Shown one piece after another: positions 2,750 through 24,344 of a stretch of 29,396 bases of DNA (within the stretch, counting starts at the first letter, position 1; the number at the start of each line of letters is the position of its first letter). The stretch covers positions 1 to 29,396 of the forward strand of contig CANCSY010000017.1 in the NCBI GenBank assembly GCA_947380915.1. The letters are read 5' to 3'. The notes beneath the pieces are model-generated. The model ran no database searches, was not told the DNA's origin, and was given only the letters and a program-made list of their open reading frames with translations. Source of the DNA: Beijerinckiaceae bacterium. GTDB taxonomy: Bacteria; Pseudomonadota; Alphaproteobacteria; Rhizobiales; Beijerinckiaceae. The position numbers and the translations under genes are program-made.

Positions 2750-3079
2750 ATGACCGGCATCCTCGACGTCGAATCCACCCTGACCGACCGCTACCAGACC
2801 ACGGTGCCAGAAACAGTGCGTCGTGCGCTTGGGCTCGGCAAGCGCGACAAGATCCAATACACGATCCATCCTGGCGGGGAGGTGGTGCTGACCCGGGCCG
2901 CCAGCCCCGGGGATGATGACCCTGCGCTCGGGGCGTTCCTGAACTTCCTGACGCGCGATATCGCAGCACATCCCGAGCGTCTGCAAGCCGTGGACGCCGC
3001 GCTCGTGGAGCGCCTGCGGTCCCTTGTGGGCGAGGTTGAGGTCGATCTCGACGCAGCCCTGTCGGAAGATGATGAATGA
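2750..3079 (+). CDS. prlF: Type II antitoxin PrlF (SohA), AbrB-like
   Basis: 109 residues, close to E. coli PrlF (111). The N-terminal half is a swapped-hairpin AbrB/SpoVT DNA-binding domain: [19 protein letters not shown], then [18 protein letters not shown]. The C-terminal part, rich in acidic residues and ending ALSEDDE, should wrap the toxin. It neutralises the YhaV ribonuclease and probably represses its own promoter. The ATG at 2750 is preceded by GGAG at 2740-2743 with a six-base spacer; a longer frame from 2687 begins inside the promoter palindrome and lacks an SD. The stop overlaps the yhaV start in ATGA, so the two are translationally coupled. Confidence 0.9.
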
Positions 3080-3582
3080 GCGCGGGCAAGCCTGCGCCCT
3101 TCGTCGTTCACGGCTGGACCCTATTCGCCCATCCCTTGTTTCTCGCTCAGATTGAAGCTCTCGCAGGGCAGGTGGAGGAACTCAAGCTGAAGGACGGGGT
3201 CGGCTATGTGAAGAAGAACGCCAGCAAGCGGCTGGCGGCCATCATCCGGCTGGCCTTCGACGTGATCCCGCAAGATCCCGCGCGGCCGGACTACCGCCAG
3301 GGCGGGACCCTCGGCGAGGATCGCAAACATTGGTTTCGGGCTAAATTCTTCCAGCAATACAGGCTGTTCTTCCGCTACCACGCGCAAAGCAGGATCATCG
3401 TGTTGGCTTGGGTCAACGACGAGAACACCAAGCGCGCCTATGAGAGCGGCGACGACGCCTACCGGGTGTTCCGCAAGATGCTGGACAGCGGGAACCCGCC
3501 AGATGACTGGGATCAGATGCTGGAAGAGGCCCGGGCCGAGGGGCGCCGCCTGCTGGACTTCGCGTCGAAAAGAAAGCCCTGA
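3076..3582 (+). CDS. yhaV: Type II toxin YhaV (ribonuclease)
   Basis: 168 residues; E. coli YhaV has 154. The family signature is clear: an N-terminal [10 protein letters not shown], the Lys-rich [12 protein letters not shown], and the RelE-superfamily core [18 protein letters not shown] followed by [18 protein letters not shown] and [11 protein letters not shown]. YhaV is a ribosome-associated mRNA endonuclease that slows growth when free of PrlF. It starts inside the prlF stop codon (ATGA overlap), which fits co-production of the complex. No frameshift or missing core segment is visible, so the pair looks intact. It ends 39 bases before the convergent gene at 3622. Confidence 0.9.
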
Positions 3583-11392: not shown

Positions 11393-11714
11393 AATCGCTC
11401 CCCGTATCGCGGCGTTCACACGCATGGGAATCAACCAGAGATGGCCCCCTTTGGCAAGGCGCAGGGCGGGGCGACAGACTCAGGGGCCTGTGGCGATGCT
11501 GGCTATGAGCCCCGTGCAAAGGTCGCCCAACGCCTCGCGAGCATTGGGAGCCCGCCGGTTTGCGGCATTTGTCCGGCAATAGCTTCCTTGCTTTGACGCC
11601 AGGCTCCCGGACTCACCAAGGTTGATCGCCGCTAACCTCGAGATGCGGCATGAAACATTCGCTGATGTAACTTGGTATAAAAATTGCTGTTGCTCCTCAG
11701 GAAGGGGTTTACAC
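11393..11714. other. Divergent intergenic region between the Rieske and DUF4422 genes
   Basis: 322 bases with no supported gene. It must hold promoters for both flanking genes. A TATAAA at 11676-11681 is a possible -10 for the plus-strand gene, but no good -35 was found. This is the junction between the catabolic block and the glycan block. Confidence 0.4.
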
Positions 11715-12455
11715 GTGACGATCTACATTATGACCCATAAAGAATCCGTGCTTCCGCGGTCACCACTCTATGAGGCGGTGGGCGTGGGGGGATTCTCCTC
11801 CCGGCATGTTGCGCATGTGGATAGCGCGGCCGCCGACAATATATCGCATCTGAATCGCTTCTATTGCGAGTTGACCGGATTGCATCATGTCTGGCGCCAT
11901 ACACGTTCCGCGCAGGTGGGTATTTGCCACTACCGTCGATACTTCAATCTCGTCCCTTTGGCGTCTGACACGGCGGACTTTTTAATGGCGCCTATGAGCG
12001 ATCAGGTCTTGCAGTTGCTTGAGCATCCGCAACAAGAGGCGCGAGCTACCGAGTTGCTGCGCACCTACGACGTGATTCTGCCAAAAGCCGTTTATTGCCA
12101 GATGGGAGTGGGCCATGAATATAATTCCGCAGTGGGCTCTGGAGGGGAGTGGGAGGTGTTCCTGCAGGTGCTCGATGATTATTACGGGCCAAATGCGCAT
12201 GGAATGCGTGACGAACGCCGTGTTTTCTACTGGAACTTGATGTTAACGCAGCGCAGCTTTTTCGATCATTATTGTTCTCATCTCTTTGCTGTGATTGACC
12301 GGGTCTTTGATCGCGTAGGCCAACTCCCCGCTATGGCAGGGGCCCGTTACCAGCCATACAGATACCCGGGATATCTGGCTGAGCGTTTCATGGCCGCCTT
12401 CATCAATGTCAATCGTATCCGTTATTACGAAACAAGCGTGATTTCCACAGAGTAA
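11715..12455 (+). CDS. DUF4422 protein, probable glycosyltransferase
   Basis: 246 residues from GTG. It opens with a strand typical of DUF4422 (VTIYIMTHKES) and has the family hallmark HYRRYF at 72-77 after the QVGIC strand. The later YDVILPKAVYCQMGVGHEY and the closing PYRYPGYLAERFMAAFI region are also family-like. DUF4422 proteins sit in capsule and O-antigen clusters, frequently beside or fused to UDP-galactopyranose mutase, and are thought to be sugar transferases. Here glf follows on the same strand after 318 bases, which supports a role in galactofuranose glycans. AGGAAGGGG (11699-11707) gives a strong SD seven bases before the GTG; the longer frame from 11622 is not supported. Confidence 0.85.
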   Translation: MTIYIMTHKESVLPRSPLYEAVGVGGFSSRHVAHVDSAAADNISHLNRFYCELTGLHHVWRHTRSAQVGICHYRRYFNLVPLASDTADFLMAPMSDQVLQLLEHPQQEARATELLRTYDVILPKAVYCQMGVGHEYNSAVGSGGEWEVFLQVLDDYYGPNAHGMRDERRVFYWNLMLTQRSFFDHYCSHLFAVIDRVFDRVGQLPAMAGARYQPYRYPGYLAERFMAAFINVNRIRYYETSVISTE

Positions 12456-12773
12456 TCGAAACTTGTGGTAAGCGACGTTTCTGTTAAGTCTCTTTTTATT
12501 AGTGATGAGATGACATGGTCGCAAACGTGACAGGCGATTTATGGGCCCGATGTTTGCAGCCCTGTTGCGGTCATCATTGCTTTTTGGCTCCGACCCGACA
12601 ACACCGTCACGCCGATGGGGCGTGGGAAAAATACAAATGAATGTCTCGGTGCGCCTGGCGCAGATTGTTCGTGCACCGCCAAGCACCCAAAATTTGCGAC
12701 CGCCGGAATAGAAACGGTTCGGTGAATATTGAAGTCTATGTTCGGCGGTTGGTAGGAAATAAGGGGGACGGTG
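12456..12773. other. Spacer between DUF4422 gene and glf, no gene seen
   Basis: 318 bases without a convincing ORF on either strand. A short frame at 12641-12835 runs into glf out of frame and is not supported. The length suggests that glf has its own promoter or that a gene was lost here. Confidence 0.35.
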
Positions 12774-13778
12774 ATGAGGTTGCTGGTGGTCGGTGCAGGC
12801 TTTTCAGGTGCGACGATTGCACGGTTGCTGGCTGAAAACGGCCATCAGGTCGATATTATCGACCGGCGTTCTCATGTCGCCGGCAATGCTTATGACTATG
12901 TCAACGAGTTGGGCATTCGCATGCATAAATATGGTCCTCATCTTTTCCACACGTCAAATGAAAAGGTTTTCCGATTTCTGTCTCGATTTACCGAATGGAT
13001 TTTTTATCAGCACAAGGTAAAGGCGATGCTCGCAGACGGCCGGCTCGTCACTTTGCCGGTCAACAAGGAAACATCTGAAATTGTTGGTAAAGAAAACGTG
13101 TTGGATGTTTTTTTCAGGCCTTATACAAAGAAGATGTGGGGGCTTTCCCTTGATGAACTGGATCCGGGCATCCTCAACCGCGTTCCCGTTCGCGATGACA
13201 TGAACGAATTTTACTTTCCGAATGACCAATTTCAATTTCTTCCAAATGGGGGTTATACGAACTTGATCGAAAACATGTTGGACCATCCGTCAATAAAATT
13301 GAAATTGAATATCGAGTATCAAAAGTCACTCAGCCTCTCGTATGTCCACACCTTCAATTCCATGTCGATTGATGATTTTTTTGGGCATGTCCACGGCACC
13401 CTTCCGTATCGCTCCATTAAATTTCATACGATCAATGTTCCTTGTCCGACAATTTTCCCTGTAGCCACAGTGAATTTCACTCATAAGGAAAAATACACAC
13501 GCGTCACCGAATGGAAAAATCTGCCCGATCACGGTTCGAATCCGGCATACACCACTCTTACTTTTGAGGAACCATGTGACTTCGCAGAAAACAACTTCGA
13601 GAGATATTATCCCGTGAAAGACCTCGAACAACGCAATAGAAATCTGTTCAGGAAATACCAGGAAATGACGCCCCCGAATACAACGTTCATAGGCAGATGT
13701 GGATTGTATGCATATCTGGACATGCATCAGGCGGTCAGTTCAGCCCTGGCGATTGCCGAAAGGTTTCTGGAGCAATAA
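12774..13778 (+). CDS. glf: UDP-galactopyranose mutase
   Basis: 334 residues (E. coli Glf 367). It interconverts UDP-galactopyranose and UDP-galactofuranose with reduced FAD. The FAD-binding VVGAGFSGATIARLLAENGH begins the protein, followed by IDRRSHVAGNAYD, the active-site loop GIRMHKYGPHLFHTSN, PYTKKMWGLS, and the closing FIGRCGLYAYLDMHQAVSSAL. All family landmarks are present, so it looks functional. AGGGGGA (12762-12768) precedes the ATG at 12774; GTG at 12771 is an alternative. The gene is much more AT-rich than the flanks: 13201-13260 has 21 G+C out of 60. That points to horizontal transfer. Confidence 0.95.
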   Translation: MRLLVVGAGFSGATIARLLAENGHQVDIIDRRSHVAGNAYDYVNELGIRMHKYGPHLFHTSNEKVFRFLSRFTEWIFYQHKVKAMLADGRLVTLPVNKETSEIVGKENVLDVFFRPYTKKMWGLSLDELDPGILNRVPVRDDMNEFYFPNDQFQFLPNGGYTNLIENMLDHPSIKLKLNIEYQKSLSLSYVHTFNSMSIDDFFGHVHGTLPYRSIKFHTINVPCPTIFPVATVNFTHKEKYTRVTEWKNLPDHGSNPAYTTLTFEEPCDFAENNFERYYPVKDLEQRNRNLFRKYQEMTPPNTTFIGRCGLYAYLDMHQAVSSALAIAERFLEQ

Positions 13779-13885: not shown

Positions 13886-14623
13886 CTAGAATTTCCTTAT
13901 AACGACGAGCGAATTGTCGCCCAAGCGCATGTTTTTCCTCCACAGATTAACAAAGTCATAGTTATAGTTTCTGGACAGAAAGTACTCTTTATAGGACATC
14001 AAATCCTGAATTCCTACATCTTCAATGATGTATACGCCGCCTTCGCGGAGCCTGTGAAAAGAGTTTTCCAGGAGCGTCGCGCCGGCCGCGAATGTATGCA
14101 AGCCATCATCGATCATCAAATCGAAGTCTTTATCGCCAACGCTTTTCCAGAGATCGCCGATGGAATCTGGTGATGTCTGGTCACAATAAAAAGTCTTTAT
14201 GCGATCTTCATTGAACAAGACATTTCTATCAATGTCCGCGCCAATAATTTCCGCTCTCGGGAAATAATCACGCCAGACCCTCAAAGAAGCGCCGGGACGG
14301 CCAGAGGCGGTCATATTGGATGGCAAACCGGGATTGTTCGTACCCAGGCCACATTCAAAAACGTGCTGAATGAAACCGCGGCAGTGCCCGAAGTGTCGCT
14401 CAATGAAATCTGCGTAAGTATGCGAAGGCCAGGGATAGGGATGTCCCGTTTTCTCGATCTCGCCCTTGTCTGATCCATACTTGTCGCAGAGAAAATTCAA
14501 AAGGCTGGGCGAATTGCGCTTGTAATAAACGCTATAGTGATTATCAAAATTTTCCTCGAATACCTCATCTATTTTAACAGGTAACTTTATCGCTCCTAAG
14601 CCATATAAAATTTTCTCGGTCAT
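13886..14623 (-). CDS. SAM-dependent methyltransferase, SDKG type of glycan clusters
   Basis: 245 residues. The protein shows the order typical of this class: CDKYGSDKG (46-54), HTYADFIERHF, motif I VFECGLGTNNPGLPSNM (from 88), GASLRVWRDYFPRAEIIGADID with Asp130, then FYCDQTSPDSI and the acidic LMIDDGLH (Asp172, Asp173). Such enzymes occur in capsule and O-antigen loci and probably O-methylate sugars. Metal dependence is suggested by the paired aspartates. AAGGG lies eight bases before the ATG. It is the most AT-rich gene here: 14521-14580 has 17 G+C of 60. It is transcribed toward glf and separated from the glycosyltransferase upstream by 312 bases. Confidence 0.85.
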   Translation of the reverse strand: MTEKILYGLGAIKLPVKIDEVFEENFDNHYSVYYKRNSPSLLNFLCDKYGSDKGEIEKTGHPYPWPSHTYADFIERHFGHCRGFIQHVFECGLGTNNPGLPSNMTASGRPGASLRVWRDYFPRAEIIGADIDRNVLFNEDRIKTFYCDQTSPDSIGDLWKSVGDKDFDLMIDDGLHTFAAGATLLENSFHRLREGGVYIIEDVGIQDLMSYKEYFLSRNYNYDFVNLWRKNMRLGDNSLVVIRKF

Positions 14624-14935: not shown

Positions 14936-15913
14936 TTAAACACGCCTGGTCGCTTTGATCCTGTCATTCAGACGGCGCAAGCACTCGACCTCCGCTTCCA
15001 GGGAATAGCGTTCGCGAAGTCTGCGGATGCCGGGCGCCAGATCGCTTGATGTCAGAACCCCCGCATCGATCAATTTCATTGCGCGCGTGGTTTCCGTGAC
15101 GAAGGAGCGTATGTCGCCCTGATGAATCTCGATGAAATTGGAGCGGTCCCAATATTCGTTGGCGCCCTGGCCTGTGTAGCCGATCACCAGATTGCCAGCC
15201 AAAGCGGCCTCCAGGGGCGGCAGGGGGCAGCCCTCGAATTCACTGAAGGACAGAAAGATGCTTGAATTGGACAGGATGGTGGCGACCGTGGCTTCGCTGA
15301 CATTGTCGATGGGAACGATGCTCCACGTAGGCGGAAGATAATGCCTCAGCGCATAGACCACCCGGGTCGCATGCGTCGCCATTTTCCGTGGCATGAAGGA
15401 GATTGTCCGACCAGCCTGCGCCGCAGCGGGGCGATGATCAGCCATGAAGCGCTCGTTGATCGACCATTGCATGGGCACGATGCGCGCCGGATCGATCTGC
15501 GGATAGTTGAGCATGACCATGCGGGCGCTGTCGTCGGAAATGGTCAGGACAAGTTGGGCCGCCTGATAGACCGCGCTGAACAATTCGTAGGGTTGCTCGG
15601 CCAGAACCTGGTGTGTGTGGTAGCCGTTCTGCACGAATATGCCGAAGCGGATGCCCATGGCCATGCATTGCGGTCCGAAGGAGGCCGCCCATATTTCAGG
15701 AATGATGACGAAGTCCGCGTTCACATCCATCAGGTTGTTGCGGGCGATTTGCGTCTTGTGTTCGAACCAGTCACAGGTGAACTCGGGTTCGTATAAATGC
15801 AGGACACAGGCGTCCGCCCCGATCGACGTCAGCAATTCGGCGTGTCGATAAATGACCTTCACGCCGCCAGTGGGCGTGTTGTCCGCTGGGCAAAGATAAA
15901 TGATCCGGCTCAT
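14936..15913 (-). CDS. Glycosyltransferase, GT4-like
   Basis: 325 residues. The N-terminus has the glycine-containing loop of GT-B enzymes (YLCPADNTPTGGVKVIYRHAELL) and the C-terminal domain has the acceptor/nucleotide signature SEFEGCPLPPLEAALAG, with Glu227 and Glu235 forming the E-x7-E pair of retaining GT4 enzymes. SFMPRKMATHATRVVYAL marks the start of the second domain. No signal peptide or membrane helix is seen, so it acts in the cytoplasm or at the membrane face. Donor and acceptor are unknown. It follows the GT41-type gene by 95 bases on the same strand, so all three minus-strand genes from 24344 down may form one operon. Confidence 0.85.
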   Translation of the reverse strand: MSRIIYLCPADNTPTGGVKVIYRHAELLTSIGADACVLHLYEPEFTCDWFEHKTQIARNNLMDVNADFVIIPEIWAASFGPQCMAMGIRFGIFVQNGYHTHQVLAEQPYELFSAVYQAAQLVLTISDDSARMVMLNYPQIDPARIVPMQWSINERFMADHRPAAAQAGRTISFMPRKMATHATRVVYALRHYLPPTWSIVPIDNVSEATVATILSNSSIFLSFSEFEGCPLPPLEAALAGNLVIGYTGQGANEYWDRSNFIEIHQGDIRSFVTETTRAMKLIDAGVLTSSDLAPGIRRLRERYSLEAEVECLRRLNDRIKATRRV

Positions 15914-16008: not shown

Positions 16009-18183
16009 TTATCCTGAAGCGGTCACCAGTTCGCTGAGGCGTCCCTCGAACCGGGCGCAGAAATTGCTGGTGTTGAACAGCCAGCCCTGCGCTTTTCGTT
16101 GCGCGAGAGCCGCCGAAGCCGTCGCCGCTTCTGTCCGGTTGATCGACAGCTTGATGGCTTTGGCTTCGTAGTCCTGCAGGGTGTGACAAATGAAATAGGA
16201 CAGGCCGGCGCTGGTGAGCAGGCTGCCCGCCATGCGCGAAACATAGGTGCGGCCAGAGAGCGTCAGAATGGGCAGGCCCGCCCAAAGGGCATCGTTGGCG
16301 GTTGTTCCGGCGTTATAGGGCGTTGTGTCAAGAAACAGATCCGCGACCTGGAATCGCGCCAGATAGTCCTTCGGGTCGATGCGGCCTGCAAAATGGAGGC
16401 GATTGACGTCGATCCCCTGATCCGCCGCAGCCCTGCGCAGGTTTTCCTTTGCCCAGGGATTATCCTCCAGAAGCCAGAGCACGCTCTGCGGGCTGGCTTT
16501 GAGGATACGCAGCCAGCTCTCGAACATGGGCTGGGTGATTTTATGGCTGTTGTTGAAGGCGCAAAAGACAAAGGCGCTATCTGGAAGACCGAACTGCGCG
16601 CGGATCGGTTTTGCTCCGAACACGCGTTTGGAATCGCTGACCTGAAAACCACTGTCGACAAACAGCGGCTTTTCGCTGAAATGCGGCTGCAATTCATCAG
16701 GAAAGATGAATCTGTCCGCCACCACATAATCCACATGGGGAAGGCAGCTTGTGCCGGGATAACCCAGATAGGCGATCTGAACCGGCGCAGGTCCGCGCGC
16801 AACGATATTGGGTCGCGCATTGCCTGTCAGGCCCTGCAGATCAACAAGCACGTCTATTTCGAGGTCGCGGATCAATTGGGCTGCGGCCCCATCGTCCAGA
16901 TCACCGATCTTGTGAAAATGATCGAAAGCCCGGCGCACGCGTTCGCGGAACCCTGTGCCGTCTTCCCTGCTCCAGCAAAAGGCGTGAACCTCGAAGCGCG
17001 AGCGGTCATGGGTCTCGAAGAGCTCCACCGTCAGAAGCGAAACCGCATGCATCGAAAGATCTGATGACAGATAGCCGATCCGGATCTTGTCATGCTGATA
17101 TCGCGTCGACGCGGGCGCCATTCGTTCGAAGACGCCGACCTTTTCGTCGACGAACTTTTCCGCTGCGCGCCTTTGCAGCGCAGGATCATCCGTCATTCCC
17201 AGCATGGCGAGGGGAGAGGCATGTTCCAGAACAGCGTCGATATTGGTGGGCAGTCCATCGATCACCGGCCATTTGCATTGCTTCTGGCGCAGATGAATCC
17301 AGTGATGGAGCACAGGGCTCTGGTCTATGTCGAGCAGCAGGCTGTCATGCAAGGCTTTCTCGGCGCCGTCATAGTCGCGCAGTTGCTCCTTGAGCCTGCC
17401 GATATTGTTGAGAAGACGGGTCTTATGATCGAGATTGCCCGGCACATGAATGGTCGAATTGGCGAGCGCCAGGTTCCAACGCGCCAGGGCGTGGTCGGTC
17501 CTGCCCATTTTTTCAAGGATGGTGCCCAGATTGAGATGGGCTTCGAAGAAGTCCGGGTTGAGGCTCAACGCAGTGAGCAGATGATTTTCCGCGACGCCCA
17601 GCAGCTCCAGCTTGTTGTAGATGACGGCGAGGTTGAACATGAGCACATGGATATAGGCTGGATCGCAATGGAGCAGGCCTTCCTTGTACGTCGTGATCGC
17701 GTCCACGTCCTTGCCGGCTTCCGACTGGAGGTTCGCCTGATCCAGTATGTCGACAAGGGTTCTGCTGGGGATGGGCAGGTTGGGAAAAAGTTTTTTGATT
17801 TCGCGCCAATGGGCCAGGACGCCATTGGTTGTAGGGTCGAGCACGATGGCTGTTTGCGCATCATTGATGCATTCGGCGAAGCGCCGCAGGTTCATGTTGA
17901 TCAGGGAGCGCGCATGGTAGGAGGGCGCAAAGGCGCTGTTGGCCCTTATCGCCTCGGAGATATGTTCGAGGGCTTCCTGATCTCTGCCGAGACCCGAGAG
18001 GGAACACGCCAGCGAGTAACGGGCGACCACGTTGGTCGGATCGACCGCGACGATGCCGAGGAAGGCGGAGACCGCTTCCTCGGCATGTGCTGATGCTTGC
18101 AACCCCAGCGCCGTCCCCAGATCTCCTGCGATCTGGATCAGGCTGCGGGGTGCGGGCGACGCTTCGGCTTGTTGTTCGATCAT
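16009..18183 (-). CDS. TPR-containing GT41 (OGT/SPINDLY-type) protein glycosyltransferase
   Basis: 724 residues. Residues about 30-290 are TPR helices (for example SLACSLSGLGRDQEALEHI and HLNLGTILEKMGRTDHALA), a superhelix used in this family to hold polypeptide substrates. The catalytic half starts near 366: IRIGYLSSDLSMHAVS with His379 (aligns with human OGT His498), DLQGLTGNARPNI, PAPVQIAYLGYPGTS, FCAFNNSHKIT with Lys548 (OGT Lys842) and DTTPYNAGTTANDALWAGLP with Asp631. GT41 enzymes add sugars, often GlcNAc or glucose, to Ser/Thr or Asn of cytoplasmic proteins. It starts inside the stop codon of the giant repeat gene (ATGA), making that Ser/Thr-rich protein its likely substrate. The donor sugar cannot be read. 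Confidence 0.92.
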   Translation of the reverse strand: MIEQQAEASPAPRSLIQIAGDLGTALGLQASAHAEEAVSAFLGIVAVDPTNVVARYSLACSLSGLGRDQEALEHISEAIRANSAFAPSYHARSLINMNLRRFAECINDAQTAIVLDPTTNGVLAHWREIKKLFPNLPIPSRTLVDILDQANLQSEAGKDVDAITTYKEGLLHCDPAYIHVLMFNLAVIYNKLELLGVAENHLLTALSLNPDFFEAHLNLGTILEKMGRTDHALARWNLALANSTIHVPGNLDHKTRLLNNIGRLKEQLRDYDGAEKALHDSLLLDIDQSPVLHHWIHLRQKQCKWPVIDGLPTNIDAVLEHASPLAMLGMTDDPALQRRAAEKFVDEKVGVFERMAPASTRYQHDKIRIGYLSSDLSMHAVSLLTVELFETHDRSRFEVHAFCWSREDGTGFRERVRRAFDHFHKIGDLDDGAAAQLIRDLEIDVLVDLQGLTGNARPNIVARGPAPVQIAYLGYPGTSCLPHVDYVVADRFIFPDELQPHFSEKPLFVDSGFQVSDSKRVFGAKPIRAQFGLPDSAFVFCAFNNSHKITQPMFESWLRILKASPQSVLWLLEDNPWAKENLRRAAADQGIDVNRLHFAGRIDPKDYLARFQVADLFLDTTPYNAGTTANDALWAGLPILTLSGRTYVSRMAGSLLTSAGLSYFICHTLQDYEAKAIKLSINRTEAATASAALAQRKAQGWLFNTSNFCARFEGRLSELVTASG

Positions 18184-21100
18184 GAATTTTCCGGACCAAG
18201 GACTGCTGCGTTGGCGGCTGTCATCGCGCCGATCTGGGTGCTGGAAAGCCAGGAAATCTGTGTCGTGCTGAGCGCATCCGCCTGTTCGGTGGTGAGCAGT
18301 CGGATCTGATCCAGAGTGAGCGCGTTCAGGTTCGCAGATGTCATGCTGGCGATCTGCACCGTGGTGATCGCATTCTCCTGACCGGCGGTCAAGTTCGAGA
18401 TTTGCGCGGTGGTCAGAGACTGGATCTGCGCTGTGGTGAGAGCTGCGATCTGATAGCCGTTGAGCGCCATGATCTGATCGGTTGTCAGTGCGCTGACGTT
18501 CGTGCCCAAGCTGACGATCTGTTCGGGCTGCATCGCCTGGAGATCGATATCCTCGAAGCCCTTGATCTGCGCGGTTGTCAGCTTGCTCATCTGGAATGTG
18601 GTCAAGCTGGCCGCATGCTCCGTCGTCAACGCGGCGATCTGCTCCGTGTTGAGGCCCGACAGCTGCACGCTGCCCAAGGACTCGACCTGAGCCGCCCAGA
18701 GGTTGGAGATCTGGTCGGGCGTCAGCAAGCGAACCCTGTCAGACGTGAGCGCATTGAGTTGCTCGGTGGTCAGGTTGCGGACCTGATCGGTGGTGAGGGC
18801 CGCGATGAAGTCCGTTCTCAGGGCCGCGATGCGACTTGTGTCGAGCGTGGTGATCTGGCCGTCATCGAAGGTGACGATCTGGTCGGTCGTCATCGCGTTG
18901 ATCTGGGCCACGGAGAACAAGGCGGTGTTGTTGCCCAGAGCCGCGATCTGATCCCCGGTCAGCGCCTTGATCTGCGGATCCGTGAGGTATGTGTTCACGG
19001 CTGTGGCGATCGCCGGGATCTGGGTGTCAGGGGTCAGCGCCGCTATGGCCTGGGTCGTGAGTTCTTTCACGCCAACCGTGCCAAGCGCGACGATATTCTC
19101 AGCCTTCAGGAAGCCGATCTGATCCGAGGTCAGCGCTTTGATCTGTCCTGCGGTCAGCACTGCGGCCTGTTCGGTGTTGAGAGCGGCGACCTGGTCCGGC
19201 GTGAGGATGGAGATCTGAGCCGTGTTCAGGCCCCTGATCTGGTTCGTTTGCAGAGCGTTGACATTCTCTGTCCTGAGGAAGGGCAGCTGATTGCTGGTGA
19301 GATAGGCGATCTGCGTGCCGTTCAGGGCGGTCGCCTGAGTGCTGGTCAGCGAGTCGATCTGCTCTGCGGTCAGCGCGGCGACCTGGCCCGTCGTTCCGGT
19401 TGTGAGCGCGTTGATTTGCGATGAGGTCAGGGCCTTGAACTGTTCGCCCGTCAGCCATGTCAACTTGGAGCCCAAAGCGGGGATCTGAAGGGTGGGATCG
19501 AAGGCTGCGATGGCGGTGGTGCTGAGAGCGGCGAACTGATCCGTCGACAGGACGTTGATCCGGTCGGTTGCCAGCGCCGGGATCTGCAGGGATGTCAGAG
19601 CGCCGATCTGCGTGGGGGACAGAGCCTTGATCTGGGTCGATGTCAGGTAGGTGACCTTGGTCGCCCCGAAGCTTTGCAGGTCAGCGGTTTCCAGACCCAC
19701 AAGCTGTGTCGCGGTCAGGGTCTTGATCTGGAATTCCGTGAGACCGGCGATCTGTTTGGAGGTAAGGCCGGCGACCTGATCTTGCGAGAGCCCCCTGATG
19801 GCGTCGGTTTTCAACACGTTGATCTGGGCGGAGTCCATGGCTTGCAGGTCAACCACCTCCAGACCAGCGATCTGCACCGAGCTCAGAACAGCGATCTGGT
19901 CGACTGACAGGTTCTTGGTCTGGGCCGTGTTCAGGGCGGTGATCTGGTCCGAGGTGAGCGAGGCGGTCTGGCCGGTCGTCAGCTGCGTGATCTGCACTGA
20001 GGTGAATGCGTTGATCTGGGTCGAGGTCAAGCCATAGATCTGGCGTGACTTGATGGCCTTGAGATCGGTCTCCTCCAAGGCTGCAATATGGTCGGTCCGC
20101 AAGGCGCTGATCTGTGTCGCGCTCATGGAGGCGTAGTGTTCGACGCCAAGCGCCACGATCTGTCCCGTGGTCAGCGACCGGATCTGGTCTTCCTTGAGGG
20201 CGGAGATCTGGTTGGTCTTCAGCCAGGAGATCTTCGCGGTGCCTAGGGCGGCGAGATGTTCCGTGGGCAGGGCGGCGATCTGGTTGCCGGTCAATGCCTT
20301 GATCTGGATGGACGTCATGGCTCCGATGTCTTCGGATTCCAGGAAACCGATCTGGTCCGGCTCCAGCTTGACGAGTTGCGCCGTCGTCAGGGAAGACGTC
20401 TGCTTCGTGGTGAAGGCGCGGATTTGCGCTGAAGTCAGGGCGGCGAGCTGCGAGGTTTTCATCGCTTGAATGTCGCCGGATTCGATGGCGGCGATATGCG
20501 CAGTTGTCAGGTCCACCATCTTGTCGGCGCGCAGCGCGCCGATCTGGCCAGAGGTCATCGTGATGATCTGGGCTGTCGTCAACGCCAGCACCTGATTATC
20601 GGTCAGGCTGTCGATCTGCGAGGCCCTCAGGGCCTGGAGATCGTCATTCGCCAGAGCCTTGATCTGCCAGGTCTCCAGGCCAGCAACCTGTGAGGTGGTG
20701 AGGGCGGCGACCTGACTGGTTGTCAGGGCGACGATCTGGTCGGTGTTGAGGGTCGAAAGCTGATCATTACGGAGGGCGCTGATCTTCGAGGCGTTCAGGG
20801 TCTGCATGGCGTTCGTCTTGAGCGCCGCAAAGCTTTCGACCGACAAGGCGGCGAGTTGCGACGTCTTCATGGACACGAATTGGCCGATTTCCAGAGCATT
20901 CGCCTGATCGGTGCTCAGCGCGAAGACGTGGTCTGTGGTCAGGGCCTGGATCTGGGCCGTCGAGAGCTTGTTGACCTGGTCAGTCTTCAGAGCGACCACT
21001 TGCGACACGTCAAGGGCGCTGACCTGCGTGAGCGTCAGGGCGCTGACCTGATCCGCGCGCAGCGCGCGCACCTGGTCGCTCGACAGGGTGAGAACCTGGT

Positions 21101-24100
21101 CCTTGCTCAGACGTGCGATCTGCGCAGTGCCCATGGCCGCGATGTTGGTCGCTGAGATGGCCCCGATCTGGTCCAGGGTCAGGGCGGCGATCTGCGGCAA
21201 GGTGAGCACGGAGACCTGTCCGGTGCTCAAAAGCTTGATGCGATCTGGCAGAATCTGGGTCAGCTGGGCGGTTTTCAAGACTTGAAAATCCGTCGACTCC
21301 AGCGATGTGATCTGTGCTGTGGTGAGGGCCGCCGCCTGGGCTATGGTCAGGGCGCCCACCTGCGTGGCGGTAAGCGCTGTGATCTGATCCGAGGTCAAGG
21401 CGACAAACTGGTCAGCCGAGAGAGAGCTGATCTGCGCGGCGCTCAACGCGGGAATATCCACGCTTCCAAGAGCCACGATCTGATCGGTCCTCAGCACGCT
21501 AAGTTGCAGGGTGCTGAGGGCAGCCACCTGTTTCGTGGTCATGGCTGAGATCTGCGTCGAGGGCAGGGCGCTCAGCTGATCCGTGGTCAGTGCGCGGATC
21601 TGCGGCACCGACATGGCGGCCAGATCCTCTGTGTCCAGCGCTGCGAGTTGCGCGGTGGTCAGCGACGCGACCTCGGCGGCCGTCATGCTGATGACCTGGG
21701 TCGAGGTGAGGGCCTTGACCTGTTCGGTTTTCAGGGCGCTGACCTGATCGCCGGTGAGGGCGGCGATGAAGGTCGGATTCAGAACTTTGATGTCTGTGCC
21801 CAGCGCTTTCAACTGATCAACCGAGAAAGCGGCGATCTGCGGCTTGGTCAGGCGAACGATATTGTTTGTGCCCAACCAGGTGATCTGGTCGGTGGTGAGG
21901 CCCGTGATCTGGTCGGCCGTCAAGGCGGCGACCTGCTCGGGCAGAAGCGCCGCAGTCTGCTTGCTGTCAAGCTTCGCTATCTGGGCGCCCGAAAAAGCTT
22001 TCACCTGGCCCAGGGTCAGTTTTTGGATCTGCTCCGTTTTCAACTCGGCGACCTGAGTGGTTTTCAGCGCCAGGATCTGATCGGTGATGAAGGCCGCGAT
22101 CTGTGTGACCTGAAGCTTGTCCACCATGCCCGTGGTGAGATTGTTGATCTGATCGACCGTCAGGCTCGCGATTTGCGCAACGGTCAAGGCGCTCAGCTGT
22201 GTGCCGCTCATGGCGTTGAGATCAGAGGTCTCGATGGCGCTGATCTGTTGGGTGCTCATCGCCACCAGCTGGTTGGTGCCCAGGGCCGCGACCTGCGCGT
22301 TGGACAGGGCCGCAATCTGATCGGTCGAGAATGCCTTGATCTGGAGGGCGCTCATGGCCCGAAGGTCTTCGGTCTCGAAAGCGTTCACCTGGCTTGTGTA
22401 GAGCGCAGCGATCTGTGCGCCGGTGAGGCTGGCGGTCTGCTTGGTGGAAAGAGCGACAATCTGCTTGGTATTGAGGTTTTGCACTTGGGCTGCAGACAAG
22501 GCGCTGATCTGCGTGGACGTGAATGAGGCGATGGTTTGACGGGACGCCAGCTCCAGATCTCGGACCTGCGCGGAGGCCAGTTGGTCGAGTTGGCCCATCG
22601 GGGTTGTGGTCAATTTGACAGTTTGTGATGACGTCAACGGGCCTACGTATTGCATGAACAAGGCATTCTGGGCGGCGGTGCTCGTGGGTATTGCCGCCTT
22701 GACTGTGGAAAAATTGGCCGTGTAAAAGGCAGCTTGGTCGATAGCGGACATTTTTTCAAATCTGCTCAAGCCCATCGCCGTGATCTGCAGGGCGGTGAGG
22801 CCCTTGACCTGGGAGGCCGATAACTGGCTGAATTGGGAGTCGCTCAACCATGTGATCTGCGGGGTGGTCAGAAAGCTGATCTGGGCTGACGTGAGAGACG
22901 TGAGCGCCTTCGTAGACAGGTTCTGGATCTGGCCCGACTCAAGGCTCTGGATCTGGGATGGCGACAGGGCCGAGATCTGCCCAGCGCTCAAGGCATTGAT
23001 GCTGTTCGAATTCAGCAATCCGATCTGGTCTGTGGTGAGGGCGATGATCTGATTGGTGGTCAGAGCGGCGGCCTGAGCTGTGGTGATGGCCTTGACCTGA
23101 TCATCGCTGAGATTCGCAATCTGCGTACCCTTCAGGGAGCGGATCTGCGAGGCGGTCAATTTGACGAAATCCGGCACTTCGATCGCCTGGAGCTTGTCCG
23201 AGGTCAGTGAAGCTAACTGAGCCGTCGTCAGAAGCGGCGCCTGGTCTGTCGTCAGGGCTGCGATCTGGCCGACGCTCAAGGCGCCGAAGACGGAGGCCTT
23301 GACCCTCTGCAGATCGCCCGCCTCGATGGAACCAAATTCGGTGGCGCCAAGGTTGTTAAGTTGCTCAGCGGACATGGCGGCGACCTGCGTCGCCGTTAGC
23401 GCCTTGATCTGCTCAGTTTTAAACAACGAGACCTGATCGCTCTTGAGCCATGTGATTTGGGTCGAGGTCAAGGATTGGATACGGTCGGTGCCAAGTCCCT
23501 TCAAATGCTCATCGTCAAGGGATTTGACCTGGTCTATGTTCAGGGCGCGCAGGTTGCTGACGCTGAGGGCGTTGAGCTGCTTGGATGTCCATCCCGCCAT
23601 CTTTGTGGTGAGGGCGGTCAATTGGCGGGTGGTCAGCAGCTTGATCTGATCTGTCGTCAGGGCCTCGACCCGATCGGAGCTCAACACGCTGAGTTGATCG
23701 ACCGACAAGCCTGAAATGGTCTGGGTCTGCAAAGCCGAAATGTCTTCGGCCTCAAGGCCGGCCACCTGGACGGTGAGAAGATTCATGGCCTGAAGGCGTG
23801 TCAGCGCGTGGACCTGATCGCTTGTGAGGTTGGTGATCTGGCTGGATTCGAGGCTTCGGAGTTGATCAGTCTTCAGCGCAGCGACGAGATCGGTTCGGAT
23901 GACCGACAGTTGCGTCGTCAACGTGTCCAGTTGTGTATTGCTCAGTCCCTTGATCTGGGAGACGGTGAAGTAATTGACGTTTTGATCACCGTCGGTGTTG
24001 TCCGCAAAAAGCCCCTTGATGGCGTCGGTTGTCAGGGCGGCGATTTGGGCGGTGGTGAGCGCGGCGACCTGGGCGGAGCTCAGGTTGAGGACGTCAGCGG

Positions 24101-24344
24101 ATTCAAGACCTTTGATGGCGCTGGCGCTGATGTAGGAAATGTCGCGCGCTTCGAGCGCTGCGAGTTGCGCTGAGTCCAAGGCTCTGACTTGTCCGCTATC
24201 CAATCCCTTCACCTGGGTCGCGGTCATCGCGACCATCTGTTCTGTGGATATCAGGGCGATGTCGGGTGTCGTCAACTGCGATATATATGCGGAAGGGAGC
24301 ATCGAAAACGCAGAAGGGGAGTAGTTTGTGATCGAATTAGCCAT
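18180..24344 (-). CDS. Giant octapeptide-repeat protein, 2054 residues, Ser/Thr-rich
   Basis: Almost the whole protein is a tandem 8-residue repeat, consensus T-T-x-Q-[IV]-x-A-L; I parsed it by hand (see the repeat entry). The first 16 residues and last 5 are the only non-repeat ends. There is no signal peptide, no membrane helix and no cysteine, and no RTX or autotransporter domain. The reading frame is intact throughout, which argues for selection. I do not recognise an established family. A surface or secreted adhesin, scaffold or S-layer-like fibre is possible. Its stop overlaps the GT41 gene start. The ATG at 24344 has only a weak GGTGGG upstream; the AT-rich stretch 24420-24610 probably holds the promoter. 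Confidence 0.85.
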   Translation of the reverse strand: MANSITNYSPSAFSMLPSAYISQLTTPDIALISTEQMVAMTATQVKGLDSGQVRALDSAQLAALEARDISYISASAIKGLESADVLNLSSAQVAALTTAQIAALTTDAIKGLFADNTDGDQNVNYFTVSQIKGLSNTQLDTLTTQLSVIRTDLVAALKTDQLRSLESSQITNLTSDQVHALTRLQAMNLLTVQVAGLEAEDISALQTQTISGLSVDQLSVLSSDRVEALTTDQIKLLTTRQLTALTTKMAGWTSKQLNALSVSNLRALNIDQVKSLDDEHLKGLGTDRIQSLTSTQITWLKSDQVSLFKTEQIKALTATQVAAMSAEQLNNLGATEFGSIEAGDLQRVKASVFGALSVGQIAALTTDQAPLLTTAQLASLTSDKLQAIEVPDFVKLTASQIRSLKGTQIANLSDDQVKAITTAQAAALTTNQIIALTTDQIGLLNSNSINALSAGQISALSPSQIQSLESGQIQNLSTKALTSLTSAQISFLTTPQITWLSDSQFSQLSASQVKGLTALQITAMGLSRFEKMSAIDQAAFYTANFSTVKAAIPTSTAAQNALFMQYVGPLTSSQTVKLTTTPMGQLDQLASAQVRDLELASRQTIASFTSTQISALSAAQVQNLNTKQIVALSTKQTASLTGAQIAALYTSQVNAFETEDLRAMSALQIKAFSTDQIAALSNAQVAALGTNQLVAMSTQQISAIETSDLNAMSGTQLSALTVAQIASLTVDQINNLTTGMVDKLQVTQIAAFITDQILALKTTQVAELKTEQIQKLTLGQVKAFSGAQIAKLDSKQTAALLPEQVAALTADQITGLTTDQITWLGTNNIVRLTKPQIAAFSVDQLKALGTDIKVLNPTFIAALTGDQVSALKTEQVKALTSTQVISMTAAEVASLTTAQLAALDTEDLAAMSVPQIRALTTDQLSALPSTQISAMTTKQVAALSTLQLSVLRTDQIVALGSVDIPALSAAQISSLSADQFVALTSDQITALTATQVGALTIAQAAALTTAQITSLESTDFQVLKTAQLTQILPDRIKLLSTGQVSVLTLPQIAALTLDQIGAISATNIAAMGTAQIARLSKDQVLTLSSDQVRALRADQVSALTLTQVSALDVSQVVALKTDQVNKLSTAQIQALTTDHVFALSTDQANALEIGQFVSMKTSQLAALSVESFAALKTNAMQTLNASKISALRNDQLSTLNTDQIVALTTSQVAALTTSQVAGLETWQIKALANDDLQALRASQIDSLTDNQVLALTTAQIITMTSGQIGALRADKMVDLTTAHIAAIESGDIQAMKTSQLAALTSAQIRAFTTKQTSSLTTAQLVKLEPDQIGFLESEDIGAMTSIQIKALTGNQIAALPTEHLAALGTAKISWLKTNQISALKEDQIRSLTTGQIVALGVEHYASMSATQISALRTDHIAALEETDLKAIKSRQIYGLTSTQINAFTSVQITQLTTGQTASLTSDQITALNTAQTKNLSVDQIAVLSSVQIAGLEVVDLQAMDSAQINVLKTDAIRGLSQDQVAGLTSKQIAGLTEFQIKTLTATQLVGLETADLQSFGATKVTYLTSTQIKALSPTQIGALTSLQIPALATDRINVLSTDQFAALSTTAIAAFDPTLQIPALGSKLTWLTGEQFKALTSSQINALTTGTTGQVAALTAEQIDSLTSTQATALNGTQIAYLTSNQLPFLRTENVNALQTNQIRGLNTAQISILTPDQVAALNTEQAAVLTAGQIKALTSDQIGFLKAENIVALGTVGVKELTTQAIAALTPDTQIPAIATAVNTYLTDPQIKALTGDQIAALGNNTALFSVAQINAMTTDQIVTFDDGQITTLDTSRIAALRTDFIAALTTDQVRNLTTEQLNALTSDRVRLLTPDQISNLWAAQVESLGSVQLSGLNTEQIAALTTEHAASLTTFQMSKLTTAQIKGFEDIDLQAMQPEQIVSLGTNVSALTTDQIMALNGYQIAALTTAQIQSLTTAQISNLTAGQENAITTVQIASMTSANLNALTLDQIRLLTTEQADALSTTQISWLSSTQIGAMTAANAAVLGPENS
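18198..24296 (-). repeat. Tandem 24-bp coding repeat (octapeptide array, residues 17-2049)
   Basis: Parsed by hand, the array contains 236 units of exactly eight residues plus six seven-residue units (143-149, 246-252, 849-855, 1625-1631, 1804-1810, 1947-1953). Longer interruptions lie at 113-126, 533-570, 598-608, 1616-1624, 1648-1658 and 1771-1787, with a 3-residue slip at 587-589. The longest unbroken run is 95 octads (856-1615; bases 19500-21779). Adjacent 24-base units differ at many bases while the amino-acid pattern holds, so the array is old and kept by protein-level selection. It is not a CRISPR: no unique spacers alternate with constant repeats. Confidence 0.93.

Follow-up and report, generated by a model that had tools for sequence, protein, structure and literature searches.

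Some giant repeat adhesins of bacteria have enzymes dedicated to their glycosylation: the serine-rich repeat adhesins have their own glycosyltransferases, and AIDA-I and TibA have heptosyltransferases. The substrates of many bacterial TPR-GT41 enzymes, in which tetratricopeptide repeats (TPRs) accompany a glycosyltransferase of family 41 (GT41), are to our knowledge unknown. The locus discussed here lies on a 29,396-nucleotide stretch of a Beijerinckiaceae bacterium (GenBank assembly GCA_947380915.1, contig CANCSY010000017.1), hereafter the window, in which a gene for a giant octad-repeat protein overlaps a gene for a TPR-GT41 enzyme; with the adhesins just named it would share the dedicated glycosylation of a giant repeat protein, while its enzyme family, repeat and export route are different. 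Two other described systems are closer. FlmG of Caulobacter crescentus combines TPR binding with a GT-B domain and glycosylates flagellins in the cytoplasm (PMC7591256), and HMW1C and EtpC are GT41-family enzymes encoded beside the giant exported TpsA adhesins HMW1 and EtpA, which are modified in the cytoplasm (PMC3983070).

Like FlmG, the window enzyme carries its TPRs at the N-terminus and a GT-B domain at the C-terminus, and the substrate of FlmG is exported after its modification; FlmG acts on flagellins with pseudaminic acid (PMC7591256), whereas the window enzyme has a giant repeat protein as its gene neighbour. As with HMW1C and EtpC, the GT41 gene stands beside the gene of one giant protein. 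In HMW1C, which forms N-links on two-partner-secretion (TPS) proteins, an AAD domain replaces the TPRs (PMC3983070), whereas the window GT41 has TPRs and the repeat protein has no TPS domain. By analogy with these two systems, it is likely that the window enzyme O-glycosylates the repeat protein, which belongs to the ALTTAQ family, while this is still in the cytoplasm, ahead of the export predicted for it.

The overlapping gene pair

The preliminary description of this DNA had reported a gene of 2054 residues and a GT41 gene on the minus strand, overlapping in an ATGA, and its coordinates, strand and lengths were exact (Table 1). A GGA stretch six bases before the ATG of the GT41 gene, seen by eye, is a candidate ribosome site; a scan for promoters and terminators gave only a weak signal, with 9 promoter-like sites (5.7 expected) and 18 terminator-like sites (12.6 expected). 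The repeat protein reaches 999.5 bits with the Pfam profile PF20080, named "ALTTAQ repeat" (curated cut-off 26.4), in 61 stretches, and an octad profile finds 209 octads in it, where 20 shuffles of the same composition gave a mean of 11 and a maximum of 18. Its self-identity is 0.29 at lag 8 and 0.04-0.09 at the remaining lags from 4 to 23, lag 16 excepted. The octad is therefore already a named family and is not undescribed, and a text search of the open-access literature with the letters of the repeat found no paper on it. The earlier statement that no described pairing of this octad with a GT41 enzyme was known agrees with full-text searches of an open-access library (subscription papers and preprints being outside the search), in which no listed paper had the pairing in its title or abstract.

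The enzyme had also been named correctly. The 724-residue protein matches PF13844 at 262.5 bits (cut-off 25), with TPR_2, TPR_1 and TPR_8 above their Pfam cut-offs, and its matches to XcOGT and to the human OGT have E values of about 5e-78. Counted along the alignment, H379 falls on H218 of XcOGT (H558 of the human enzyme) and K548 on K388 (human K842), which we take to be the catalytic positions. Neither residue varies among the 36 GT41s aligned, a conservation suggestive of selection for activity, and this speaks against the very unlikely alternative that the protein is mainly a chaperone keeping the giant chain competent for export, with a transferase activity that is secondary or limited to a few terminal sites. 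TPRs bind extended chains, so large a substrate of type I secretion would have to stay unfolded, and the N-terminal 30-40 residues look similar by eye across several repeat proteins, all of which would suit such a chaperone.

Recurrence of the pair on plasmids

The proposed glycosylation of the repeat protein by its neighbour draws on the recurrence of the two genes together, which was surveyed in plasmid records and IMG/VR contigs (L-numbers are labels of the compared loci). By tblastn, the repeat protein was found in 63 of 72,556 plasmid records and the GT41 in 96, and the counts of co-location use the best 60 of the 63 and the best 60 of the 96. Of the 60 repeat records listed, 27 are also among the listed GT41 records, and in 26 of these 27 the two genes are at most 10 kb apart. 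Counted once per strain or genus label, the genes are near in 16 of 17 labels, where placement uniformly at random would give 1.7; the corresponding probability of about 7e-19 overstates independence, as CCGE531/532 and ACO-34A/daejeonense resemble near-copies and functional islands tend to cluster in any case. The pairs with nearby genes belong to eight genera, namely Pseudomonas, Rhodovastum, Niveispirillum, Pseudoroseomonas, Cereibacter, Shinella, Pseudorhizobium and Rhizobium. In Cereibacter sphaeroides 2.4.1, a GT41 gene adjoins the repeat gene on a plasmid. Seen from the side of the enzyme, 19 of the 20 GT41 plasmid records listed with the highest scores (548 to 328 bits) are repeat loci, the exception being a Collimonas plasmid (350 bits) that has no PF20080 match, and at 323 bits and below Azospirillum and other repeat-free records are intermixed. 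The gene of that Collimonas enzyme (L020 4883-11884), which scores highest among the listed relatives that lack a repeat gene, is separated by about 2.8 kb from a gene for a YadA-like autotransporter, a further type of giant adhesin. Two Azospirillum plasmids (L023 and L024), whose records give no match to PF20080, each hold two GT41-like genes in one region rich in glycan genes.

The same closeness was seen when whole records were searched with PF13844. Among 26 repeat-bearing plasmid records (18 + 6 + 2, of which L021, L022 and L026 were fetched via GT41 and not via the repeat), 16 hold a GT41, near the repeat in 15. The 18 records fetched via the repeat include 12 with a GT41, always near the repeat (12/12, a set in which two loci are from Cereibacter and two, closely alike, from Rhizobium). 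On these 12 records, two control families of glycosyltransferases are seldom near the repeat, PF00534 in 1 of 10 holders and PF00535 in 1 of 8, or 1 of 12 and 2 of 10 after L022 and L026 are added; closeness to the repeat is thus a property of GT41 and not of PF00534 or PF00535 glycosyltransferases at large.

The arrangement of the two genes is variable. Among the pairs measured, the ATGA overlap occurs only in the window; ten other pairs, from nine loci, are 43-904 bp apart, some of them divergent, and in three further loci the distance is 4 to 8 kb. The IMG/VR contig L028, the only repeat-bearing locus among 10 GT41-bearing IMG/VR loci, has the order sugar-nucleotide epimerase, repeat gene (2723 residues), GT41, repeat gene (2856 residues) and FkbM methyltransferase. 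In the Caulobacter vibrioides genome, taken as a control, PF20080 and PF13844 both match, a result of presence without places, and a scan of genome contigs found one weak Dependentiae locus, in a genome where PF20080 has no match. In Rhizobium anhuiense the GT41 beside the repeat gene (L026 10001-11758; NZ_CP098801.1 112149-113203) may be broken, because its PF13844 matches span two reading frames. The Shinella record L021 (NZ_CP069303.1), filed as a plasmid, is 4.6 Mb long and thus of chromosome size.

These arrangements also bear on the possibility that the GT41 modifies another surface protein, for example a flagellin as FlmG does, and that the repeat gene merely lies in the same surface or motility island. 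FlmG, with the same TPR and GT-B layout, does act on flagellin (PMC7591256), flagellar genes adjoin the pair in Rhodovastum (L002), and flagellins adjoin it in Pseudorhizobium flavum (L018). Nevertheless, a flagellin is near the repeat in only one of the five records that hold any (14 searched), no flagellin or other flagellar gene was found by Pfam among the 20 open reading frames (ORFs) scanned in the window, several of the gaps between repeat and GT41 genes are below 300 bp, and in one locus the GT41 gene stands between two repeat genes, so that another surface protein as the true substrate is unlikely.

Weighing the octad pattern, the fold and the unpaired repeats

A number of results weigh against a GT41 dedicated to the repeat, and they concern the distribution of the two genes, the serine and threonine (Ser/Thr) residues of the octad and the route of export. 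The preliminary description had proposed a search of repeat homologues for GT41 neighbours, and had taken the enzyme to be dedicated to the repeat protein. In the plasmid records, the nearness in 26 of 27 records with both genes and its specificity against two glycosyltransferase families agree with that idea, but 33 of the 60 repeat records listed have no listed GT41, among them 12 of the 13 Shinella records listed, both Thioclava, several Rhizobium, Pararhizobium and others. For 10 of the 33, a search of the whole plasmid record (and of that record only) with PF13844 gave no GT41. Because of these 33 records, GT41 is an optional partner of the repeat. The only distant record of the 27 is Hyphomicrobiales UR115, with GT41 genes about 360 kb from the repeat gene; the GT41s at repeat loci fall into more than one clade, and the close relatives of the window GT41 itself (P0002-P0015) are outside the survey of gene context.

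In the case of the octad, Ser/Thr had been said to occupy the first two places of nearly every repeat. Of the two places that follow the octad leucine, one or both are Ser/Thr in 188 of 209 octads, but both in only 79 of 209; the two places together hold 267 Ser/Thr, out of 462 in the 2054 residues. The richness had been read as a pointer to glycosylation, and this candidate signature was rejected, because repeat proteins of plasmids without GT41 are equally rich (0.92 against 0.91). The octads with any Ser/Thr make up a mean of 0.913 in paired proteins (n=15) and 0.923 in unpaired ones (n=9; rank test p = 1.0), where unpaired means that no GT41 is near on the plasmid and one of the nine (L047) has a distant one. 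By the same test, octads with both places occupied come to 0.600 paired and 0.530 unpaired (p = 0.68), and total Ser/Thr to 0.243 and 0.245 (p = 0.86). The first octad place is Ser/Thr less often in paired proteins (0.74 against 0.81, p = 0.02) and the second more often (0.77 against 0.64, p = 0.11). The counts leave out L001, L013, L017 and L029-L043, and the test was run without the near-copies L004 and L009; the row for L010 takes in an antisense frame, and that for L021 is a weak match of 720 residues.

As Ser/Thr is equally dense with or without GT41, the pattern is probably one of helix N-capping. In a single-sequence AlphaFold2 (AF2) model of residues 863-1006 (mean predicted local distance difference test, pLDDT, 84.9; predicted template modelling score, pTM, 0.76) there is one short helix per 8 residues, and a model of residues 1295-1534 also has short helices but is confident only at about residues 21-140 of its 240. 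Most helices in the models begin right after the first Ser/Thr place of the octad, which is why that residue is probably an N-cap, that is, structural. HeliScrew4 (PDB 9zem), a solved chain whose name suggests a designed protein, matches the repeat without gaps over 107 residues (E 1.7e-14) and has the same 8-residue period; it differs in having TPE/SPD octads where the window repeat has TTx and in a chain of only 120 residues, and no paper on it was found in the open-access literature. Given the modelled 8-residue helices and this sequence match, the fold of the octad is most likely a helical screw. The octapeptide proteins of ice nucleation have their own Pfam profile and a beta-solenoid fold, and the repeat was rejected as a member of that group, since it has no such Pfam match at E 0.1 and its models are helices without strands.

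From these data a second reading can be drawn, in which the repeat protein is an exported solenoid without sugars, its Ser/Thr are helix N-caps and the GT41 travels along in glycan islands for unrelated reasons. The independence of Ser/Thr content from GT41, the helices that begin after the first Ser/Thr and the repeat records of Shinella, Thioclava, Pararhizobium and others without a GT41 all fit it. It seems improbable all the same, for a generic glycan island fails to explain the closeness of GT41 when PF00534 and PF00535 enzymes are seldom near the repeat.

The route of export is the last point that counts against the likely cytoplasmic glycosylation before export. The Pfam matches of the repeat protein include no secretion domain; at E 0.1 it matches neither PF05860, which we take to be the TPS domain of TPS adhesins, nor PF00353, presumably the RTX repeats of RTX substrates. 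No secretion gene was found by Pfam among the 20 window ORFs scanned, and tblastn queries with ATP-binding cassette (ABC) transporter, HlyD and TolC sequences from two related loci found no match in the window. The ABC and HlyD genes that stand beside the substrate gene in a type I secretion locus were thus not found here, but they do occur at the paired loci of five related lineages, namely two Pseudomonas together with Niveispirillum, Pseudoroseomonas and Cereibacter.

Many of the homologues listed combine ALTTAQ repeats with TPS, RTX, calpain-type protease or G8 domains, and by hand count 19 of the 120 homologues listed carry PF05860 and 9 carry PF00353; because of these last two combinations, ALTTAQ looks like a building block shared by several kinds of exported protein. 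A Spiroplasma plasmid, far from Proteobacteria, encodes a long protein with PF20080 matches (L017 9764-13216). The repeat genes on the plasmids of Pseudomonas asturiensis (L006 6819-14260) and Pseudoroseomonas cervicalis (L011 9313-14433) lie in several frames, as if decaying or mis-sequenced.

Surrounding genes and the predicted pathway

Downstream of the GT41 gene, the window holds further genes of a possible glycan island (Table 1). The GT-B-like protein would be a candidate enzyme for a second sugar, the DUF4422 protein is a candidate glycosyltransferase of the same island, and the glf-like gene lies 2.2 kb from the GT41 gene; the outer genes scanned are metabolic and transport genes, together with a toxin gene of the YhaV type.

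Table 1. Features of the window, with positions counted from its first nucleotide
Feature	Position	Strand	Basis
Giant ALTTAQ (PF20080) octad-repeat protein, 2054 residues	18180..24344	-	ORF; PF20080 profile; octad profile; AF2
Stop/start overlap ATGA of the repeat and GT41 genes	18180..18183	-	Sequence
TPR-GT41 protein glycosyltransferase, 724 residues	16009..18183	-	PF13844 and TPR families
GT-B-like glycosyltransferase	14936..15913	-	PF13692 20.2 bits (below 27) and PF00534 18.3 bits (below 26.4), both under cut-off
S-adenosylmethionine methyltransferase-like protein	13886..14623	-	PF13578 20.2 bits, under cut-off 26.3
glf-like UDP-galactopyranose mutase	12771..13778	+	PF03275 172.9 bits; TIGR00031 285.9, under cut-off 303.75
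DUF4422 protein	11622..12455	+	PF14393 125.5 bits
YhaV-type toxin gene (toxin-antitoxin)	3076..3582		PF11663 201.9 bits

Elsewhere, genes for sugar-nucleotide enzymes, methyltransferases or type I secretion are frequent in the paired loci. A glf gene lies at most 1.5 kb from GT41 in five Rhizobiaceae repeat loci (L007, L018, L021, L022 and L026), and a PF03275 search of 22 repeat-bearing records found one glf in each of six, these five and one about 14 kb from GT41, glf being common on plasmids generally (319 records). One gene, for a PF12248 protein, stands between GT41 and glf in two of the Rhizobiaceae loci (L018 15682-16968; L022 14004-15257). The co-location of glf with GT41 may have arisen twice, because the window glf shares only about 30% identity with the glf genes of the Rhizobiaceae loci. 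In Rhizobium sp. CCGE532 (L022 16862-23214), curlin and csgH genes are found a few kb past the repeat-GT41-glf group.

The pathway predicted for the window would begin with the TPR part of the enzyme (about residues 20-280) holding the nascent or unfolded repeat chain, while the GT-B domain transfers one hexose or N-acetylhexosamine to octad Ser/Thr. Elongation and capping of the glycan, probably with galactofuranose, would then fall to the products of the neighbouring GT-B, DUF4422, glf and methyltransferase genes, and the chain would leave the cell by a type I secretion system encoded elsewhere in the genome, folding outside into a long helical screw with one short helix per octad. Since close gene pairs recur on plasmids of eight genera, the pair would build a sugar-coated secreted protein. 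A wider proposal, which we hold tentatively and with more doubt than belief, is that TPR-GT41 enzymes and giant ALTTAQ helical-screw proteins may form an unrecognised and widespread class, in which the proteins receive a coat of sugars on hundreds of Ser/Thr set at regular intervals and are co-transferred with varying sugar-nucleotide genes (glf, or those of the GDP-mannose or UDP-glucuronate pathway), methyltransferase genes and type I secretion genes, giving a glycan-studded screw fibre in which the spacing of the sugars is set by the octad.

For TPR-GT41 enzymes, the recurrent plasmid neighbour in the eight genera named above provides a concrete candidate substrate, and the regular scaffold of the octad would offer a simple model for how these enzymes choose their sites.

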